In this document: piece after piece, positions 2,724 to 40,508 of the stretch
Numbering within the stretch: position 1 is the stretch's first letter
Layout: the number at the start of each line of letters is the position of its first letter
Notes under the pieces: model-generated
What the model saw: only the letters and a program-made list of their open reading frames with translations
What the model was told of the DNA's origin: nothing
The model's database searches: none
Position numbers and translations under genes: made by a program
Virus record (IMG/VR): IMGVR_UViG_3300023184_000026
Span: 186,001 to 250,000 of that record
Strand: one strand, 5' to 3'
Origin: a virus
DNA: 64,000 nt

Positions 2724-3425
2724 CATTTCACAAACCTGCCATCTTTTCCACGGGGACATTTACTGGTTAGTCCTCTCCACCATCCAGTCGGAATTTCTTT
2801 TGATTTTTCGTATTTTTTATTAGAAATTCCATCTGTTATCCAACAGCTTCCTAATAGCCACGTGCGAGTTTTTTCTATACTTTCAGCCGACATTGTTTTA
2901 CCCAAATGCATTTTTCTATGATGTTCCTTACGTTCTTCGCTCCATATGGTGCCAGATGCATACGTGTTACCAATCAGTGAATTGGATATTTTATTTCTTG
3001 ATTTGATTGTATGATATCGCCCCTCCATCGGGCCGTTGGCTGGAATTGCTATGTTATACCCTCTCACTATTGAATTGTAAAATTCAACCCAGTGAATTTC
3101 TTTTGAAGTTAAAAGTTCTTTTATTGGCTCACACTCTTCCAAAATTACTTTATCAAAATTATCATATCCATACTTCTTCAAAGCATTATATAATTTTGTC
3201 TGTGCCTTGCACTCATGACGTTTGTATCTTCCCCATCTTGTATAAATATTATCGGCACTTTGTCCGATATACCATTTTCCGTTAGTTTTGTTTCTTAGAC
3301 CGTAGATACCGCAACATTTGGCGTTTGAGGATTTTTTCTTTATTTCGTTCGTAGTATCGTTTTGATTTTGTTCGGTTGTTTGCATCAATTTCTTCTTTCG
3401 TAGTGTATATTTTTTTTCTTCCCAT
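2723..3425 (-). CDS. GIY-YIG homing endonuclease, needs +1 frameshift
   Basis: Probable DNA endonuclease promoting its own spread. Two overlapping frames on the minus strand make one protein. ORF1 (3425-3282) starts MGRKKIYTTKEEIDANN and continues RYYERNKEKILKRQ, a basic N-terminal module. The GIY-YIG domain (CCGIYGLRN, then GKWYIGQS, a DNFDKVILEECE segment and KEIHWVEFYNS) lies in the +1 frame and runs to 2723, followed by NUMOD-like DNA-binding repeats (SEERKEHHRKMHLGK, then WITDGISNKKYEK). A run of six As lies just before the GIY motif, where a one-base skip joins the frames. A TATATTTATTGATATG motif covers the start. The endonuclease at 21959-22703 has the same layout. It lies behind an orphan early promoter. 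A sequencing indel or translation from an internal ATG are alternatives. Confidence 0.75.
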
Positions 3426-3438
3426 ATCAATAAATATA
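3422..3438 (-). promoter_or_regulatory. Late-type motif at the endonuclease start
   Basis: Minus strand TATATTTATTGATATG, ending in the start codon. The same TATT(T)ATTGATATGG(G) string covers the starts at 10843 and 22703. Confidence 0.5.
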
Positions 3439-3489
3439 GAGGTGAGAGAATAAAAGTGAGAGAAATCGTCATTATTTTTCGTTTTTTTC

Positions 3490-3517
3490 TGGACTTTTTA
3501 TAAAAACCGTTCATAGT
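3490..3517 (+). promoter_or_regulatory. Early promoter for the helicase
   Basis: TGGACT-N16-CATAGT, 7 nt before ATG 3525. Confidence 0.75.
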
Positions 3518-3524
3518 TCTATTC

Positions 3525-4931
3525 ATGACCATTGATACCACGCAATTGATCGGCCCGCAGCCCGACCATGTAAAACGCCTCGTTGATTCTATTTACATCA
3601 ACGGGTTCGCTCTTGACATGAGCGAGACTGGGACTGGTAAGAGTTATTGTGCGGCGGCAGTTGCGAGGGAACTGGGTTGCGATGCCACTCGTCCGCTGGT
3701 GCTCATTGCACCAAAACCGATTTTACCACAATGGGCCAAGATCTTGTCCAGCTTCAATCTCAAGCCATATGTTGCCATCAACTATGAAAAGCTTGGGCGT
3801 GGCAACACCAAATATATGAAGTGGAAGAAACAGAAGTGCATATTGAAGCCATGGGTTGAAAATGCCGTCATGGATGCTCCGGAATTCAATTTGCCCAAGG
3901 ATGCATTGGTCATTCTGGACGAAGGACACAAATGCAAAGGCAATCATAGCACGAATTCATGGATGATGATCATGCTCAAGGAACAGGGCTATAAGGTGCT
4001 TGTGGCGTCTGCTACGCTTGCCACTACGCCAATGGAACTCAAGGCTGCTGGCTATTTGGCAGATCTGCACAGTCTGCATAACTTTGACCACTTTCTGCGT
4101 CAGCATGGTGCGGAGTGGGTTGGTCGGTTTGGTGCCATGTCGTGGGATGCTGCGTCTGTTGCTGCCAAACACAGCATGATGTTGCTCAATGAATATTTCT
4201 TTGACACTCGCAGATGCGCATCGCGTTTGACTGTGGACGACTTTGGTACATTGTTTCCAGAGTCTCATATTGTGGCAGAAGCTTATGACCTTGGAACTGC
4301 CACTGGTAAAATCAATGATATCTATGATGACATGGAAGCTGAAATTGCCAAGTTGGATGAACGTGCTGGCAATTATAGCGAACATATCTTTGCTATCATG
4401 ATGGAAGCTCGTCGTCGTTCTGAACTGTTGAAGGTTCCTTTCTTTGTTGATACCATGGAGGATCTTTATGATGAAGGCAAGAGTGTAGTATTGTTTGTGA
4501 ACTTTCAAGACACTGTTGATGCTATTGTAAAGCGTCTGGAGAAGATGAAGAAGTTCAAGGACACTATTGGATATATTGTTGGCGGGCAACATCATAAAAC
4601 TCGTCAGAAAGATATTGAAGACTTCAATGCTGACAAAAAACGCATCATGGTTGTGAACATCAAGGCTGGAGGCGTAGGCATCAGTCTGCATGACCTCAAC
4701 GGCAATCACGCACGTGCCAGCATCATCAGCCCCAACTTCAGTGCGTTTGAGCTGGTGCAGGCTTTGGGGCGTGTATGGCGTCAGGGTGGCAAGACCAAGT
4801 CGTTTCAGAATATTGTGTATGCAGCTGGCACAATTGAAGAAAAAGCTTGTCATCGCGTTCAGTTTAGAATGAACAACTTGAGCACGCTCAATGATGCTGA
4901 TTTGCGAGAAGGCATCAAAATGTTTGGTTAA
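3525..4931 (+). CDS. SF2 (DEAD/SNF2-like) DNA helicase
   Basis: ATP-dependent DNA translocase/helicase of superfamily 2, likely acting in phage replication, recombination or repair. The 468 residues show the full set: Walker A SETGTGKS at 33-40, LVLIAPKPILPQW (motif Ia) near 58-70, the DEGH box at 132-135, SAT at 162-164, and in the second RecA domain the motif IV/V region (VVLFVNFQDT; VNIKAGGVGISL) and motif VI QALGRVWRQGG near 412-422. It is the largest gene of the early arm and richer in GC than its neighbours. It resembles the compact phage helicases in the UvsW/Hef range rather than a full SNF2 protein. The start follows from the promoter spacing. A terminator at 4940 closes this unit. 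Confidence 0.9.
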   Translation: MTIDTTQLIGPQPDHVKRLVDSIYINGFALDMSETGTGKSYCAAAVARELGCDATRPLVLIAPKPILPQWAKILSSFNLKPYVAINYEKLGRGNTKYMKWKKQKCILKPWVENAVMDAPEFNLPKDALVILDEGHKCKGNHSTNSWMMIMLKEQGYKVLVASATLATTPMELKAAGYLADLHSLHNFDHFLRQHGAEWVGRFGAMSWDAASVAAKHSMMLLNEYFFDTRRCASRLTVDDFGTLFPESHIVAEAYDLGTATGKINDIYDDMEAEIAKLDERAGNYSEHIFAIMMEARRRSELLKVPFFVDTMEDLYDEGKSVVLFVNFQDTVDAIVKRLEKMKKFKDTIGYIVGGQHHKTRQKDIEDFNADKKRIMVVNIKAGGVGISLHDLNGNHARASIISPNFSAFELVQALGRVWRQGGKTKSFQNIVYAAGTIEEKACHRVQFRMNNLSTLNDADLREGIKMFG

Positions 4932-8438: not shown

Positions 8439-8466
8439 TTGACTTTTATAAAAAGTAGTTCATACT
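8439..8466 (+). promoter_or_regulatory. Early promoter for 8474
   Basis: TTGACT-N16-CATACT, 7 nt before ATG 8474. Confidence 0.8.
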
Positions 8467-11394: not shown

Positions 11395-11402
11395 CTTTTT
11401 TA

Positions 11403-11430
11403 TTGACATTTATAAAAACTCTGCTAGAGT
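11403..11430 (+). promoter_or_regulatory. Early promoter for tRNA-Lys
   Basis: TTGACA-N16-TAGAGT, followed by boxA-like GGTTCTTT at 11448. Confidence 0.8.
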
Positions 11431-11447
11431 AGATAAAGTTAAGTAGA

Positions 11448-11455
11448 GGTTCTTT
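11448..11455 (+). promoter_or_regulatory. boxA-like element
   Basis: GGTTCTTT in the leader of tRNA-Lys, 9 nt before the tRNA. Confidence 0.5.
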
Positions 11456-11463
11456 CATATTTT

Positions 11464-11538
11464 GGTCTTGTAGCTCAATGGTAGAGCAGTTGACTTTTAA
11501 TCAATTGGTTGTGGGTTCAAATCCCACCGAGACCACCA
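11464..11538 (+). tRNA. tRNA-Lys(TTT)
   Basis: Acceptor GGTCTTG/CGAGACC, D arm GCTC AATGGTA GAGC, anticodon stem GTTGA/TCAAT with loop CTTTTAA (TTT), T arm GTGGG TTCAAAT CCCAC, discriminator A and encoded CCA. Canonical. Confidence 0.93.
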
Positions 11539-11579
11539 TTTTCAAGTAGATACCCGTTTAATGAAAATAATCGCCCAAT

Positions 11580-11780
11580 ATGTCTGAGGCTGATTACTAC
11601 GGTGCGGAAATTGACAAATACACCGAACATCTACTTGATTCAATTTATCCTTACTCAAAGAAGGAGGTAACTTACTCTTTGAAGGAGGATATCAGCGATG
11701 AACCCAAAAACAAGGAGGGAGTGGGCTCGGTTCCCATAATAGTGCGTGAAAGCTCGCACCATCGCACAATTTTAGTTTGA
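11580..11780 (+). CDS. Doubtful small ORF with three SD-like tracts, 66 aa
   Basis: The ORF reads MSEADYYGAEIDKYTEHLLD and on through PYSKKEVTYSLKEDISDE. It has no promoter or Shine-Dalgarno sequence of its own and would depend on the tRNA-Lys transcript. Its second half encodes an imperfect DNA repeat (TTACTC-NNN-GAAGGAGG twice) that looks more like an RNA signal than a coding sequence. Inside it, AAGGAGG at 11681 sits 9 nt before ATG 11698, which opens a 13-codon frame (MNPKTRREWARFP). It may be a real small gene, a fragment, or part of a noncoding RNA. Confidence 0.35.
   Translation: MSEADYYGAEIDKYTEHLLDSIYPYSKKEVTYSLKEDISDEPKNKEGVGSVPIIVRESSHHRTILV
11661..11721 (+). repeat. Triple AAGGAGG (Shine-Dalgarno-like) cluster
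   Basis: AAGGAGGTAA, GAAGGAGGAT and CAAGGAGGGA occur within 61 nt, the first two inside an imperfect ~20-nt repeat. Perfect anti-SD complements are otherwise rare in this window. Confidence 0.6.
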
Positions 11781-11804
11781 CAAAATATAAAATACGTTCA
11801 TAGT
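11777..11804 (+). promoter_or_regulatory. Early promoter for the TGT tRNA
   Basis: TTGACA-N16-CATAGT, followed by boxA-like TGTTCTTT at 11811-11818. Confidence 0.75.
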
Positions 11805-11810
11805 TATGTA

Positions 11811-11818
11811 TGTTCTTT
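11811..11818 (+). promoter_or_regulatory. boxA-like element
   Basis: TGTTCTTT just after the predicted start, 6 nt before the tRNA. Confidence 0.55.
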
Positions 11819-11823
11819 TTCAG

Positions 11824-11909
11824 GCCAACTTCGCATAATCTGGCATTGCAGCACTTTTGTAAAGTGCCGTCGAAAGACATTATCGGTTCAAATCCGTTAG
11901 TTGGCTCCA
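11824..11909 (+). tRNA. Class-II tRNA with anticodon TGT (Thr codon ACA)
   Basis: Acceptor GCCAACT/AGTTGGC, discriminator T, encoded CCA. D arm GCATAATCTGGCATTGC (3-bp stem, GG present), anticodon stem GCACT/AGTGC with loop TTTGTAA (TGT), a 14-nt variable arm with stem GTC/GAC and GAAA loop, T arm ATCGG TTCAAAT CCGTT with one mismatch. A long variable arm and 3-bp D stem mark class II (Leu, Ser, Tyr), but TGT reads threonine. The charging identity is uncertain. Confidence 0.8.
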
Positions 11910-11941
11910 CTTTATTTATCTCATATCGCGATACTTATGTT

Positions 11942-11949
11942 TGTTCTTT
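11942..11949 (+). promoter_or_regulatory. boxA-like element
   Basis: TGTTCTTT between the TGT tRNA and the tRNA-like RNA at 11964. No separate promoter was seen. Confidence 0.45.
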
Positions 11950-11963
11950 TTACATTTTTATTT

Positions 11964-12074
11964 GAGGCGGCGGCGTGGAAGGACACGCAGCCTTTCGAGT
12001 CTATGACAACAAGAGACCCCGCTAAGTTGCGGTTAATTGGCGTTGTCAGTTGGTATCAATTCCAACCCGTCCTC
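11964..12074 (+). ncRNA. tRNA-like structured RNA
   Basis: GAGG (11964-11967) pairs with CCTC (12071-12074). A D-arm-like GCGTG GAAGGA CACGC is followed by GACAAC/GTTGTC (12005-12010/12042-12047) enclosing CCGC/GCGG, and a T-arm-like GTTGG/CCAAC with an 8-nt loop (TATCAATT). The anticodon region does not fold as in a tRNA, and CCA is missing. It looks like a decayed or remodelled class-II tRNA (Leu-like D arm) or a different RNA using tRNA-like ends. Confidence 0.4.
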
Positions 12075-12081
12075 TATTTTT

Positions 12082-12156
12082 GGCCCTATAGTTTATCGGT
12101 TAGAACATTCGGTTTTCATCCGGAAGGGCGGGATTCGATTTCCCGTAGGGCTACCA
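12082..12156 (+). tRNA. tRNA-Glu(TTC)
   Basis: Acceptor GGCCCTA/TAGGGCT, D stem GTTT/GAAC, anticodon stem TTCGG/CCGGA with loop TTTTCAT (TTC), T arm CGGGA TTCGATT TCCCG, discriminator A and encoded CCA. Confidence 0.92.
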
Positions 12157-12163
12157 ATTTCAG

Positions 12164-12255
12164 ACAGAGGTGCAAGTAAGTATTCTACATCCTCTGGAGT
12201 ATTGCATAAGGTGCTTGACAGCAATAAATAACAGGACTAATTATCCTGCCTCTGT
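12164..12255 (+). ncRNA. Three-way-junction RNA, unknown type
   Basis: ACAGAGG (12164-12170) pairs with CCTCTGT (12249-12255). Inside are TGCAA/TTGCA (12171-12175/12202-12206) and CAGGA/TCCTG (12232-12236/12244-12248), both stacked directly on the closing helix. No ORF is present. It begins 8 nt after tRNA-Glu, so it may be excised from the same transcript. Confidence 0.5.
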
Positions 12256-12471
12256 ATCTGATTTAATTTTTCGTAACGCTAAAAATCGGAAGCATGAGTG
12301 ATCAATCTTCAAAAGATTCGCTGTTGCTGTAAATATTTTCACAGGTCGCTCTGTTGAAACTCTAAAGGTTATGTCGAGCGCTAGTGACCCTTGCCGGTAT
12401 CACACAGGTTGACCTCTAATCTTTAGAGAATTCTTTTTACGCAGTGTTAGTGTAACTGAACTATATGAAAC
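12256..12471 (+). ncRNA. Gene-free structured segment
   Basis: No ORF. CTCTAAAG (12360-12367) can pair with CTTTAGAG (12421-12428), but CTCTAA just before the latter can instead pair locally with TTAGAG, and AATTCTTTTT follows. The two folds are mutually exclusive, like an antiterminator/terminator pair. No ligand-binding family was recognised. Confidence 0.4.
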
Positions 12472-12588
12472 AAATTGGTAGGCTGAGGCGTGCTGAACGT
12501 CGCTGGAACCAGCCAAAATGAATCATTTGCACGTTGGCTTTCCAGCCAAAAGTGGGCCGCGTGTTCGGCTCACACTGCTCCAATTTTT
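12472..12588 (+). ncRNA. Structured RNA closed by AAATTGG/CCAATTT
   Basis: AAATTGG (12472-12478) pairs with CCAATTT (12580-12586), which runs into T5. Internal hairpins are GCTG GAAC CAGC, TTGGCT TTCC AGCCAA and GTGGGCCG CGTGTT CGGCTCAC (8 bp). The T-rich 3' end would act as a terminator. No promoter is clear. Type unknown. Confidence 0.5.
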
Positions 12589-12589
12589 C

Positions 12590-12617
12590 TTGACTTTTTA
12601 TAAATTTAGTTCACTAT
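12590..12617 (+). promoter_or_regulatory. Early promoter for 12625
   Basis: TTGACT-N16-CACTAT, 7 nt before ATG 12625. Confidence 0.75.
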
Positions 12618-12624
12618 TACTGAT

Positions 12625-12810
12625 ATGAAACTTAACCCTGGCAATTGTTACATTCAAAAGTTCTTCAATTACGATTATGAAAAATGGGATGATGAGATTA
12701 TCAAGAACAATCCATCTTGCATCTTTCATCTGATCGAGGTTGTGAAGAACAACCCAGATGACGAAAACAACTTGTTACGAAAATTTAATCTTAATCCTGA
12801 CTTTTTTTAA
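12625..12810 (+). CDS. Hypothetical early protein, 61 aa
   Basis: MKLNPGNCYIQKFFNYDYEK, then KNNPSCIFHLIEVVKNNPDD and a LRKFNLNPDFF end. Mostly helical and charged. The AAAAA-rich ORF ends inside the next promoter. Not recognised. Confidence 0.65.
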   Translation: MKLNPGNCYIQKFFNYDYEKWDDEIIKNNPSCIFHLIEVVKNNPDDENNLLRKFNLNPDFF

Positions 12811-12823
12811 TTTAGTTCATTCT
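12797..12823 (+). promoter_or_regulatory. Early promoter for 12831
   Basis: CTGACT-N15-CATTCT, 7 nt before ATG 12831. It overlaps the upstream gene's last codons. Confidence 0.6.
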
Positions 12824-12830
12824 CTGAGTT

Positions 12831-13043
12831 ATGCACTTTTATTACTTTACCACTTATACGTCAACGGAATCCACGCAAACAGGTTTTGCTTGGAAAGTTA
12901 ATTCAGCTTTGGATAAACGCGAAGTTATAAATTTTATTTCTGCCAAGTATCACGACAACAAGCCGCCTTTTGTTTCAGAAATGAAACCGAGTAACTGGAA
13001 ATTTTGCGGTAAAATGCGCAAAGAATTGTTAAAACTTTCTTGA
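12831..13043 (+). CDS. Hypothetical early protein, 70 aa
   Basis: MHFYYFTTYTSTESTQTGFA, then a helix (NSALDKREVINFISAKY) and a basic C-terminus (SNWKFCGKMRKELLKL). A small alpha/beta protein with no known motif. The start is set by the promoter. Confidence 0.65.
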   Translation: MHFYYFTTYTSTESTQTGFAWKVNSALDKREVINFISAKYHDNKPPFVSEMKPSNWKFCGKMRKELLKLS

Positions 13044-13067
13044 CTTTCTATAAAAAACAATCAATCT
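13040..13067 (+). promoter_or_regulatory. Early promoter for 13075
   Basis: TTGACT-N16-CAATCT, 7 nt before ATG 13075. Confidence 0.7.
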
Positions 13068-13074
13068 ATTCTAT

Positions 13075-13674
13075 ATGGGCTACACACATTATTTTAAAAA
13101 CAAACCTGCTTTCACTGATAGTCAGTGGGCTGCATTGACTGAGGACGTAAAGAAACTGATTAAAAATTCAAATGTGCCGTTGGGTGATGCCAATGGTGAA
13201 ATTGGCAGCAAGCCAGTTTTTAATAGTCGGCACATCATGTTCAATGGTATCGGTGACCCATCGTCCGCAGTGACTCCGGCGCCGATCGCGCCGGGTGCGC
13301 CGACGGGAATTAGTGCGACCGGCGGCAACGGCAGCGCGACGGTGAGTTTTACGGCGCCAAGTGACGGCGGTTCCGCGATCACCGGCTACACGGTGACGGC
13401 GACGCCAGCGGGCGGAGGCACGCCGATTACAGCGACGGGTACGTCTTCGCCGATCACGGTGACTGGGCTGACCAACGGCACGAGCTACACCTTCACGGCC
13501 ACGGCGACCAACGCCATTGGCACGGGTACAGAAACAAATATATTTGCTGATAATAACACGGTTCTCAGAGACATTGAAACAATTTTGTTTGATAAGTATC
13601 GCTTGCGATCTGATGATGCGTCTGCTGCAAGTTTGGAAATTATAGAGATTGTTTGCAAGCATCTTTCTAAATAA
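13075..13674 (+). CDS. MGYTHY-family protein with an inserted Fn3 domain
   Basis: The first 62 residues (MGYTHYFKNKPAFTDSQWAA through RHIMFNGIGD) are those of the widespread phage MGYTHYW family, unknown function. Residues ~66-150 are instead a fibronectin-type-III/Ig-like domain: APGAPTGISATGGNGSATVS, ITGYTVTATPAGGG and LTNGTSYTFTATATNAIGTG. The protein then returns to charged sequence (DNNTVLRDIETILFDKYRLR). The Fn3 stretch (about 13265-13530) is far richer in GC than either flank, with sharp edges, as expected for a recently acquired domain that replaced the family's central part. A metagenomic assembly chimera is the alternative. Confidence 0.75.
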   Translation: MGYTHYFKNKPAFTDSQWAALTEDVKKLIKNSNVPLGDANGEIGSKPVFNSRHIMFNGIGDPSSAVTPAPIAPGAPTGISATGGNGSATVSFTAPSDGGSAITGYTVTATPAGGGTPITATGTSSPITVTGLTNGTSYTFTATATNAIGTGTETNIFADNNTVLRDIETILFDKYRLRSDDASAASLEIIEIVCKHLSK

Positions 13675-13694
13675 GTTTGATATTTATTAGTATT

Positions 13695-14300
13695 ATGATA
13701 AATAACATTTTTGAAAACATCGGCGGAAATAAATTCAAAGTTGTGAATGAAACAACACTGAGTCGTGTATGGCAACACATCACCAACAGCGAAAGTTTTG
13801 CTGTTATTTCTCCATTCAGAAATGAAAATACTTTAGAAAAGAACATGCAGTTGTTTGCACAATTAAAAGCAGATGTGCGTGCTTTGAAGCATGGATATAT
13901 TGAGCAAAAGTCTGGATATACATATGATGATGGCACTCCTGCTGAAGAAAGATCATTGTTTATTCCAGAAATTTCATTTGATGATGCAGTAAAGTTGGGT
14001 AAAAAATATGTTCAAGAAACCATCATTTATAAAGATGCACAACAGTTTGTTCTTTATAATCCAACGTCAAAACAAATTGTGATGAACTTTTCCAAAAAGG
14101 ATGCTGTTACATTCAATCCAGATGTTCTGAAATATGCTTATTCTCAATTCTTAAACAGCAGAACCAAAAACTCTATGAAGCCGTTTGCATTTGTTGCAAC
14201 AGAAGAATATCATATACCCAGTCGCACAGATTCATATGCAGCAATGAAAGAAAACAAAGGTTTGGCTGTTGGTCAATGGAAAATTTTGTTTAGTTATTGA
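13695..14300 (+). CDS. Conserved phage protein, 201 aa
   Basis: Begins MINNIFENIGGNKFKVVNET and contains FAVISPFRNENTLEKNMQLF, LKADVRALKHGYIEQKSGYT, EERSLFIPEISFDDAVKLGK and YVQETIIYKDA. From memory, this plan recurs in many phage and plasmid proteins of unknown function: a strand (F)GIISA-R, then N-----L---LR--G-GY-----GY----, E-SLFVP and LG--F-QE-(V/I)(I)Y. ATG 13695 was chosen over an upstream TTG. A TTGATATTTATTAG string just upstream resembles the late motif, unlike its neighbours. Confidence 0.65.
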   Translation: MINNIFENIGGNKFKVVNETTLSRVWQHITNSESFAVISPFRNENTLEKNMQLFAQLKADVRALKHGYIEQKSGYTYDDGTPAEERSLFIPEISFDDAVKLGKKYVQETIIYKDAQQFVLYNPTSKQIVMNFSKKDAVTFNPDVLKYAYSQFLNSRTKNSMKPFAFVATEEYHIPSRTDSYAAMKENKGLAVGQWKILFSY

Positions 14301-14324
14301 CTTTTATAAAAACATTGTTAGTGT
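14297..14324 (+). promoter_or_regulatory. Early promoter for a structured RNA
   Basis: TTGACT-N16-TAGTGT. Seven nt later comes the 5' strand of a 10-bp helix instead of an ATG. Confidence 0.8.
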
Positions 14325-14330
14325 TGGGAT

Positions 14331-14427
14331 AGTCAATCAACAGAAGCCGTAGCCTAGCGGACGCGCGGTGGGATACTGCCAGCGAAGCATTGCAGAATGA
14401 ATTAGGTCATGATGCAGTTGATTGACA
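14331..14427 (+). ncRNA. Cloverleaf-like RNA, domain 1
   Basis: GTCAATCAAC (14332-14341) pairs perfectly with GTTGATTGAC (14417-14426). Inside lie CCG..CGG, GCGGT GGGAT ACTGC and GCAT..ATGC (with ATGA/TCAT inside), making a three-arm junction. The predicted transcription start coincides with the 5' edge of the closing helix. No protein frame is present. Confidence 0.65.
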
Positions 14428-14435
14428 GGTTCTTT
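14428..14435 (+). promoter_or_regulatory. boxA-like element
   Basis: GGTTCTTT directly after RNA domain 1 and before domain 2. Confidence 0.45.
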
Positions 14436-14449
14436 ATTCAAATAATTTC

Positions 14450-14600
14450 CGAGGATTGATCTCCTTGGACTCTCATAATACCAACAGACTTCACGAACCT
14501 ATTGATGTTTTGGTTGCCGACAGGTATAAATCTTGATAATAATGAAATAGGCATTGGTCAAGACTGTGCGGCAACGTTAGGTGTTATGAGAGAAATTTTT
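14450..14600 (+). ncRNA. Structured RNA, domain 2
   Basis: CTCTCATAATACC (14470-14482) pairs with GGTGTTATGAGAG (14580-14592), 13 bp with one G-U. Nested inside are GTTGCCG/CGGCAAC (14513-14519/14569-14575) and TCTTGA/TCAAGA (14531-14536/14558-14563). AAATTTTT follows the outer helix. A small hairpin around GAGGATTGATCTCC precedes it. Type unknown; 14601-14660 holds nothing recognised. Confidence 0.6.
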
Positions 14601-14661
14601 ACCGTAGCGAGTTGGTCTCGTAAGTGGGTGGCGCATACTTTACAAACACGCCAGATTTGTC

Positions 14662-14690
14662 TCGACTTTTTATAAAATTTAGGTCTTAAT
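14662..14690 (+). promoter_or_regulatory. Early promoter for 14697
   Basis: TCGACT-N17-CTTAAT, 6 nt before ATG 14697. Confidence 0.65.
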
Positions 14691-14696
14691 ATATAT

Positions 14697-15296
14697 ATGC
14701 CTCGTAAATCAATTGCTCGCATTGTTCGACCCTCTGGTATTGAAACCAGCGGCAACGGAAAATATTTTTATTGGAAATGCATTGTTTCTGGTCAAGAAAC
14801 ATTTGCTCCAGAACCACGCTTCAAGGATGTTGTCAAGAAATATGGCACTGAAGAAAAGCTGTTCAAGAATTATGTGCTGCGACCTGTTCAGAAATATGTG
14901 GATGCTGGATGGGATTCTGACAGCATCCTAGCCATTCTGAAAGCAAATGATGGCAAGCTGCCAGCATTGGACAATAAGACTGCAAAGGCTGTTAAAAAAT
15001 CCAAAGCATCCAAGAATCTATCTGTGTGTGAGGTTGAGCTAGTCAAACAGCCAGAACAGCCCAAGGTGTTGATTTTTCCTTGGAGCGGCAATCCCGACTA
15101 CTTCAAGAGTCCGCACATGCCTCTCAATTTTGAGAATGAAACTAAAAATAGTTGCGTGTATCCCAATCGCAATCTCAATGATCGTTGCTTTGGCTGTTCT
15201 GTTTATGATGTATGCCAATCGTCTGTCAAGTATTCTCTTGACGACATGAAAAAAACAACCAGTTCAGCAAAAGTCACCAAGTTGAAGTCATTTTAA
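14697..15296 (+). CDS. Hypothetical Cys-cluster protein, 199 aa
   Basis: An N-terminal basic domain (MPRKSIARIVRPSGIETSGN), a helical middle with a Lys/Ala-rich linker (NKTAKAVKKSKASKN), and a C-terminal cysteine group CVYPNRNLNDRCFGCSVYDVC that could bind zinc or an Fe-S cluster (C-x10-C-x2-C-x5-C). Not recognised. One of the larger proteins of the early array, with its own promoter. Confidence 0.65.
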   Translation: MPRKSIARIVRPSGIETSGNGKYFYWKCIVSGQETFAPEPRFKDVVKKYGTEEKLFKNYVLRPVQKYVDAGWDSDSILAILKANDGKLPALDNKTAKAVKKSKASKNLSVCEVELVKQPEQPKVLIFPWSGNPDYFKSPHMPLNFENETKNSCVYPNRNLNDRCFGCSVYDVCQSSVKYSLDDMKKTTSSAKVTKLKSF

Positions 15297-24292: not shown

Positions 24293-24619
24293 CCATATTC
24301 ATTCTCTATTTGGTCTCAATTTTTCTTATATACTTTTCATATATACAAAAAGCATATGTTGTGCATATATTTATCATATAGTTAAAATATCATATATCCT
24401 ATACACACTTTTATGATATTATACTCTAATTTTTGAATTTAGAATTTTTCCAATTTTTTTATATATACTTTTCATATATATCAAAAGTACCTTTTTCCAT
24501 ACCTACTTTTTCACATCATGCCCTTTGTTTTTTGAAAAAAACACGGGGCAATTTTTCATACCCAACTTTTTGTATATATCATGCATTGTTTATGTTTATA
24601 TGTACATAAATGTTTTGAG
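24293..24619. other. AT-rich gene-free junction with direct repeats
   Basis: No ORF with support. Imperfect direct repeats occur: TATACTTTTCATATATA at about 24329 and 24465, and CATACC(T/C)A(C/A)CTTTTT-type units near 24500 and 24560. It divides the early and late arms. Confidence 0.5.
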
Positions 24620-24637
24620 CATATACTTATTGATATA
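24620..24637 (+). promoter_or_regulatory. Late-type motif for 24639
   Basis: CATATACTTATTGATATA, an exact 18-nt match to 62344-62361. Confidence 0.6.
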
Positions 24638-24638
24638 T

Positions 24639-24833
24639 ATGAAACCTAATATCTCTGAAATTGGAAAAATTGTAAAAGACATGACCAAAGATGTCACATC
24701 TGCACCAAACTATAATGCTGCTGCTGCTGAAATTGTTAAACAAGGTATTGTTGACAAAACCAATGCTCGCATGGGTTATCAAACAATTTTGACCAAGCCA
24801 CTTGCTAGAGTAACACCACCAAAGACTATATAA
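24639..24833 (+). CDS. Hypothetical late protein, 64 aa
   Basis: MKPNISEIGKIVKDMTKDVT, then APNYNAAAAEIVKQGIVDKT and ILTKPLARVTPPKTI. Helical with a basic end. First gene of the late arm. ATG 24639 directly follows the late-type motif; the longer upstream reading is not needed. Confidence 0.65.
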   Translation: MKPNISEIGKIVKDMTKDVTSAPNYNAAAAEIVKQGIVDKTNARMGYQTILTKPLARVTPPKTI

Positions 24834-39788: not shown

Positions 39789-40397
39789 ATTAAAAAATCG
39801 GAATTAAAGCAGTTGATTAGAGAAGTTGTGCAAGAAGTATATTCTCAACAAGACGAAGGTATTATGGACTTTATAAAAAACCCGTTTGGAAAAAATACCG
39901 GCTCAACCGGCAAGAGATCTGACCCAAAAAATATTAAAGAAATTTACGAAAATAATTCCAAAGCAATTAAGGACATTGTAGCGGCCTTAGACCGCAAACG
40001 TCACGAAATTAAAAATCAATTGTATAAATTAGAGGCAAATGGTATCGATTGGTATGCAAATCGAACCAGCGACGGTGGATACGAGCAGAACAGCGGCGCT
40101 AACCAACGTATTTGGAATCCCGACAGGGCAGAACAAGGAAATGCGGCCTCTAAAACAAGATTTCAAGAAAAAACAAAACAATTAAAAGAATTGATACATT
40201 TTATAGAAGGGACGGCTGGGTTTGTGAGAGAATTTGAGCGCTTTCAAGAAGAATCTGTTATCACTAAACCCTATAGAATAAATAGTAGTGTATATGTCAA
40301 AGATCTCAATGATTATGTCGAAAAAATATCCGATAGCCTTCGTCGTTATGGTCTTGATACCGCATCGAAATTGTTAAAACAATTTCCTTCGGCATAA
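39789..40397 (+). CDS. Late protein, about 202 aa, possible ATT start
   Basis: Reading back in frame from TTG 39813 gives ATT-AAA-AAA-TCG-GAA, so the protein would begin (M/I)KKSELKQLIREVVQEV, a close parallel to MKRSELKQLIRETIEEQ at 62387. No ATG precedes it. ATT is a rare but real start (known from infC); TTG 39813 would cut the shared helix. Downstream is a helical, charged protein (KEIYENNSKAIKDIVAALDR, RFQEKTKQLKELIHFIEG). Function unknown; the shared N-terminus suggests a structural or internal virion protein. Confidence 0.6.
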   Translation: MKKSELKQLIREVVQEVYSQQDEGIMDFIKNPFGKNTGSTGKRSDPKNIKEIYENNSKAIKDIVAALDRKRHEIKNQLYKLEANGIDWYANRTSDGGYEQNSGANQRIWNPDRAEQGNAASKTRFQEKTKQLKELIHFIEGTAGFVREFERFQEESVITKPYRINSSVYVKDLNDYVEKISDSLRRYGLDTASKLLKQFPSA

Positions 40398-40442
40398 CCT
40401 GTTATCGCAGGCGTGAATAAAATATAATACATATTTTACACC

Positions 40443-40481
40443 AAAAGAACCCCAAACATAAAGTTTGGGGTTCTTTTTTTT
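40443..40481. terminator. Bidirectional terminator
   Basis: AAAAGAACCCCAAAC (40443-40457) pairs with GTTTGGGGTTCTTTT (40463-40477), then further Ts. A 15-bp stem with A and T runs on both sides. Confidence 0.9.
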
Positions 40482-40508
40482 TTATAATATATACTATACT
40501 TATATACT

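Follow-up and report, generated by a model that had tools for sequence, protein, structure and literature searches.

The unit at positions 14332-14592 of the window is supported as a new structured non-coding RNA, and it is probably a stand-alone RNA gene of a jumbo phage, the product of which would act in trans. The window is the whole stretch of 64,000 nucleotides that was analysed, and it comprises bases 186001-250000 of virus record IMGVR_UViG_3300023184_000026, a phage genome of 297 kb (297,258 bases in total). The unit is non-coding and consists of a first domain, a boxA-like site and a second domain, which was named gamma, and a promoter lies ahead of it. The terminase of the phage is T4-like, and the nearest named phages are Microcystis phage Mel-JY01 and Flavobacterium phage immuto, with 50-52% identity. 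The phage has its own tmRNA and about 36 tRNAs. Phage-encoded tmRNAs were seen at L012:7795-8185 (tag AKRNLAKVSFLSVRKNSGAETLVAA) and at L133:4891-5268 (tag GINNVIAAIFGQTEQHQLAA).

The original prediction had proposed a single novel-looking structured RNA that contains no open reading frame. The longest frame at the locus is a 57-aa frame starting with TTG, and in the relative L002 it is broken by small, single-base deletions, which argues against coding. The region 14331-14600 folds at -93 kcal/mol, compared with -64.7 +/- 4.8 kcal/mol for 200 dinucleotide shuffles (z = -5.9), none of which folded as low. On a fixed 270-nt grid across the whole window the best tile overlapping the locus reached only z = -3.2 and ranked 19th of 473, because the tiles cut the domains, and the fold energy alone was therefore regarded as supportive, not as decisive. 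The strongest folding z-scores on the + strand of the window were found at 811-1080 (-10.7), 24436-24705 (-9.8) and 40231-40500 (-7.1); inverted repeats are present inside the first two, and none was found when one was looked for in the third. An Rfam search, which had been proposed as a check, did not assign the locus to any family, neither at the gathering threshold nor at E <= 5, and a BLAST comparison with named phages and plasmids yielded nothing of note. Together with the covariation found in homologues of the second domain (see below), this bears out the proposal of a novel structured RNA, the transcription of which is predicted. The structured stretch is thus as had been proposed, but it is composed of two separable modules and is not one RNA.

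The promoter TTGACTTTTATAAAAACATTGTTAGTGT is located on the + strand at 14297-14324, with the -35 element at 14297-14302 and the -10 element at 14319-14324, and it reads TTGACT-16-TAGTGT. It belongs to a promoter class of the phage itself, of which it is one of 33 members on the + strand: in the whole genome the pattern matched 33 times on the + strand and twice on the - strand, while zero or one match occurred in five genome shuffles. Genome-wide, the promoter consists of TTGACTTTTATAAAAA followed by a -10 element such as CATACT or TAGAGT, for example at positions 8439, 8670, 16956 and 19410 of the window. Most sites of this class end about 7 nt ahead of an ATG, which apparently implies that many messages of the phage are leaderless; no ATG is present within 60 nt of the site at 14297. 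None of the 33 sites lies beyond about 213 kb, and the terminase, portal and capsid genes are found at about 270-282 kb, a distribution that fits an early or middle promoter class. The early timing that had been proposed for the promoter at 14297 is consistent with this class assignment.

The first domain (14332-14426, + strand) is closed by a perfect 10-bp helix (14332-14341/14417-14426), as had been claimed, and the helix encloses three hairpins, the third of which carries a GA/GA internal loop. Folded alone (14331-14427), domain 1 reached z = -3.95. It differs by one substitution in 95 nt from each of two relatives, the flanking genes of which differ by about 2-7%, and the 10-bp helix does not vary across its three known copies, so that the evidence from covariation is limited to gamma. 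A covariance model of domain 1 (R1) matched the three close copies only and no distant copy. The stretch L011:10423-10536 was considered as a homologue and was rejected, as it scored 16.5 bits (E = 0.004-0.03) and its inner pairs fit poorly. This stretch is non-coding, is part of the main tRNA cluster of the phage, and has a long closing helix and the sequence ATCAACAGAAGC in common with domain 1. ARAGORN and Rfam both called the neighbouring tRNAs and nothing at 14332-14592, and domain 1 has neither a CCA end nor a T-loop.

Between both domains, about 20 nt before gamma, the boxA-like sequence GTTCTTT is present at 14429-14435 (+ strand), where such a site had been noticed before; its function is predicted. 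In the window, the same heptamer precedes the genes for tRNA-Met, tRNA-Lys and tRNA-Thr by 13-16 nt, and it recurs in the leader of a tRNA/tmRNA-associated array on contig L134, which is described below; other parts of the genome contain boxA-like 7-mers as well. The linker that follows (14436-14448, + strand) is the insertion site of an extra domain of about 84 nt in both close relatives, which is closed by GTGGTG/CGCCAC according to the alignment and to folds of L003. In the relatives, the boxA-like site and domain 2 are thus separated by this middle domain, which is missing from the window, and its absence is read as a loss. At the other end, gamma is followed by the A/U-rich sequence AAATTTTT (14593-14600, + strand). 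The tail that had been reported is present, but it resembles the A/T-rich linkers that follow modules in L134, L121 and L003, and thus it need not mark the end of a transcript. A candidate for the transcript end is a stem-loop of the form GGCG-15-CGCC at 14630-14652 (+ strand).

Gamma starts with a hairpin at 14449-14468 (+ strand; CCGAGGA-UUGAUC-UCCUUGG), which contains the invariant core GGATTGATCTCC. The main body (14470-14592, + strand) is formed by a 13-bp helix (14470-14482/14580-14592) around two helical arms, so that the second domain with its nested helices was found as proposed. Folded alone (14449-14597), it reached z = -6.7. In two close relatives, the IMG/VR contigs L002/L004 and L003/L005, the locus is found in the same gene order and both domains are kept. 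A covariance model of gamma (R2), for which only the three close domain 2 copies were used, matched an element on the contigs L134/L133 with 82 bits (E = 5.6e-20; 486 kb searched). Gamma of L134 is 56% identical to that of the window, and when it was folded alone it adopted essentially the same shape.

A search for compensatory changes in related phages had been suggested together with the prediction, and for domain 2 such changes were found in the distant phage. In the model-fitted alignment 20 of the 54 pairs were changed on both sides, and 96% of the pair cells held standard pairs; no shuffle reached 20, and sliding of the partners left only 0-5. Because a model-fitted alignment leans towards the structure, the count was repeated with a plain, unfitted MAFFT alignment, and there 17 pairs had changed on both sides, with a covariation of 0.378 compared with 0.18 after shuffling and at most 0.144 after sliding. 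The unfitted control thus agreed with the model match in placing the distant element in the gamma family. In the 13-bp helix both partners have changed in several pairs, two further pairs that are stacked on this helix co-vary, and in the hairpin the core is the same in L134 and the outer pairs co-vary. Invariant parts include GGATTGATCTCC, CGAAC, AATCTT, ATAA.GAAA.A.GC.TTGG and AAGACTG. As the fold has been kept at 56% identity with changes on both sides of its helices, comparison of the homologues showed that the structure of gamma is under selection.

These results also bear on the view that the locus is spacer DNA or a DNA-level signal for replication or packaging and that its folding is incidental. 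Such a role would be in accordance with an intergenic, single locus per genome. However, the covariation, the use of G-U pairs in the conserved helices, which suits RNA, the strand-specific promoter and the different genomic positions in different phages all argue against it, and it is highly improbable.

Gamma is known from five records, which represent four distinct sequences and two lineages, L133 and L134 being the same phage. Only these five records were matched when the model was applied to about 50 related phage records and to four named or assembled phage genomes. A scan of IMG/VR and 84,980 prokaryote species genomes (GTDB representatives) with a hairpin-plus-loop motif returned 38 new loci, none of which was supported by the gamma model. 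Two loop-pattern matches in the same data were rejected as chance hits in coding sequence, and short matches beside the terminase of relatives were set aside as probably coding.

The contigs L133/L134 were found via a search with the invariant core of a second element of the window, named beta (12336-12432, + strand). Beta consists of a hairpin, a helix beginning with CTCTAAAGG and the core GCGCTAGTGACCCTTGCCGGTATCACACAGGTTGACCTCT, and it adjoins the gene for tRNA-Glu. A third element, alpha (11539-11645, + strand), has the closing helix CAAGTAGAT/ATCTACTTG. The original prediction had overlooked alpha and beta in the window as well as the presence of gamma as a shared module next to a tRNA/tmRNA and Pistol cluster. 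Alpha is 96% identical to L134:7460-7566, which there lies directly upstream of beta. The beta sequence (12337-12436 of the window) is 98% identical in L134 and about 84% identical in L121 (G011), where compensating changes are present, and its 40-nt core is unchanged in G011 and L134. The proteins of the L134 phage and the window phage mostly share about 45-77% identity where they match at length. Gamma differs far more between the lineages than alpha and beta do, and this contrast suggests that the latter two were exchanged at a later time or are more strongly constrained. The gamma model scored 20 bits on the G011 copy of beta (E = 8e-5 in 5 kb) but only 9 bits on the window copy, so that a common origin of beta and gamma is no more than suggested.

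On L134, the tmRNA gene is followed by a boxA-like site, alpha, beta, gamma, a Pistol ribozyme, further structure, another boxA-like site and tRNA-Met. The ribozyme (RF02679, 54.5 bits) is located at L134:7823-7889, directly downstream of gamma and within the tRNA/tmRNA cluster. The three modules are consecutive there, and in the window they are found at 11.5, 12.3 and 14.4 kb. L003 contains alpha and gamma without beta, and G011, which belongs to the window's own lineage, contains beta without gamma and has more non-coding stretches, several of which are preceded by a promoter of the class found at 14297. A/U-rich linkers separate the modules. Taken together, comparison of these genomes showed that the modules recombine and that the locus belongs to a mosaic collection of structured RNAs shared between jumbo phages. 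When the L134 array was compared with named phages and plasmids by BLAST, nothing of note was obtained.

Additional non-coding elements were observed in the same regions. A conserved element beside tRNA-Glu (12160-12270) is 92% identical to L121:2926-3027; neither this element nor beta has an Rfam match. The non-coding stretch from tRNA-Thr to tRNA-Glu (11925-12082) includes a boxA-like site and is 97% identical in L003 and 84% identical over 61 nt in G030. On L121 (G011), a row of non-coding units occupies 3350-4277, several of them behind a TTGACTTTTTTTAAAA promoter, and one is closed by about 19 bp (GGTAGTATCAAGACAGATA/TATCTGTCTTGATATTATC). A further conserved non-coding element, L121:5250-5325 and L131:4242-4301 (88% over 60 nt), forms two short hairpins and precedes either a protein gene or a tRNA.

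In the window, the RNA locus is flanked by the genes 13677-14300 and 14697-15296. The upstream gene matches DUF3293 above threshold and S-adenosylmethionine lyase below threshold, and sequence comparison gave no relative with a solved structure. S-adenosylmethionine lyases are known phage anti-restriction proteins. Further upstream, 13075-13674 encodes a protein of 199 aa with a fibronectin type III domain at residues 75-155; the relatives lack this domain and match residues 1-63 and 157-199 only, and it was probably gained recently. The downstream gene 14697-15296 (199 aa), to which no family was assigned, is on the same strand as the RNA locus and directly follows it, so that the locus might be a cis-acting leader or riboswitch that senses something and controls this gene. 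The stem-loop at 14630-14652 is also retained, as CGCG/CGCG, before the homologous gene in L131. However, L131 and G011 have homologues of the gene but no gamma, gamma of L134/G030 precedes Pistol and tRNA-Met and not this gene, and by eye the gene has its own promoter-like sequence near its start (14661-14690). A conserved association of gamma with gene 14697 was looked for and was not found. The occurrence of each without the other argues against a fixed cis leader, and such a role is very unlikely.

The preferred reading is thus an RNA gene acting in trans. The polymerase would start from the phage-class promoter at 14297, and the closing helix of the first domain would form the beginning of the transcript. 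In the linker, the boxA-like element may help the polymerase to get through strong structures, as ahead of phage tRNAs, and the chain would be trimmed at the A/U-rich linkers, yielding domain 1 and gamma as compact and stable RNAs. Early transcription, boxA antitermination, trimming and RNA stability are all predicted from sequence. Gamma is an independently folding, mobile module, which elsewhere forms part of an alpha-beta-gamma-Pistol-delta array in a tRNA/tmRNA cluster. The modules would act in trans early in infection, and their invariant loops would bind a protein or RNA of the host (or of the phage).

A tentative guess about their role is that the modules are decoys or scaffolds that blunt a host function or defence. 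It is favoured because the turnover of modules, the sharing between lineages and the apparent early promoter resemble genes for host takeover and anti-defence, and it was ranked ahead of a translation-linked role and of an assembly resembling the large phage RNAs GOLLD and ROOL. A translation-linked RNA would be an accessory associated with ribosomes or tRNAs and delivered with the tRNAs and the tmRNA, of which the phage has its own set. The position of alpha, beta and gamma between tmRNA and tRNA-Met in L134 and the tRNA-type leaders with a boxA-like element would be in line with such a role, but domain 1 is not a tRNA, in the window about 2.2 kb separate gamma from the nearest tRNA, and the proximity may reflect shared processing only, so that this role seems rather unlikely. 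With a comparably low probability, the decoy or scaffold reading might extend to a combinatorial toolkit of interchangeable RNA domains in jumbo phages, among them alpha, beta, gamma, domain 1 and the middle domain, each domain binding and disabling a different host factor; the domains would be strung behind tRNA-type leaders, released by ribozymes and by cuts at the linkers, and exchanged among phage lineages. If true, the toolkit would be an RNA counterpart of the anti-defence protein islands. In any case, gamma is a covariation-backed module that is new to Rfam, and with about 145 nt it is small enough for quick structural and pull-down work.

A literature search for structured RNAs of jumbo phages and for anti-defence RNA decoys revealed no direct precedent, and the publications found describe none of these modules. 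The RNAs C and D of phage T4 are small stable RNAs of unknown function that are made together with the phage tRNAs. The RNAs proposed here resemble them in this respect, the likeness being one of description, and to our knowledge modular exchange is not known for RNAs C and D. A role in the processing of phage tRNA transcripts has been proposed for theta ribozymes (PMC10879173), and the Pistol ribozyme beside gamma in the L134 array is consistent with ribozyme trimming of such transcripts and suggests a trimming like that proposed for theta. In contrast, gamma and domain 1 match no ribozyme model; neither Pistol nor another ribozyme was matched in the window at 11400-14750, and Pistol was found only in L134/L189 next to gamma.

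GOLLD and ROOL are extensively structured phage RNAs that occur near tRNA islands, form RNA cages and have no known function (PMC12286853). The present locus resembles GOLLD in being phage-encoded and near tRNA arrays, in its many helices and in its partly variable 5' domains, and it shares with ROOL the phage or prophage origin, the vicinity of tRNA islands and the lack of a known protein partner. Its modules might therefore be seen as domains or a fragment of such a cage RNA, dimerising by loops like UUGAUC, the invariant hairpin loop that contains the self-complementary GAUC. However, the locus is far shorter (the structured stretch has about 260 nt, compared with about 660 nt for ROOL and about 660 nt or more for RNAs of the GOLLD/ROOL type), no pseudoknots were identified in its RNA, and it matches no Rfam family. 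At E <= 5, the GOLLD model, which covers the conserved 3' half, did not match the window at 11400-14750 or L134:6500-8535, and the ROOL model, which requires about 600 nt or more, did not match either; in the tRNA clusters of relatives neither RNA was found at the gathering threshold. These results agree with the original statement that the locus belongs to no known family and that GOLLD and ROOL are longer. In addition, the separable modules occur apart and in varying combinations, which would be unexpected for a cage of fixed stoichiometry, and membership in this class is unlikely, even more so than a translation-linked role. GOLLD and ROOL turned out to be architecturally surprising, and gamma is an additional phage RNA module, the modularity of which offers a handle on function, namely by comparing the modules with the hosts or defences they are paired with and by asking whether RNA domains are traded like anti-defence genes.
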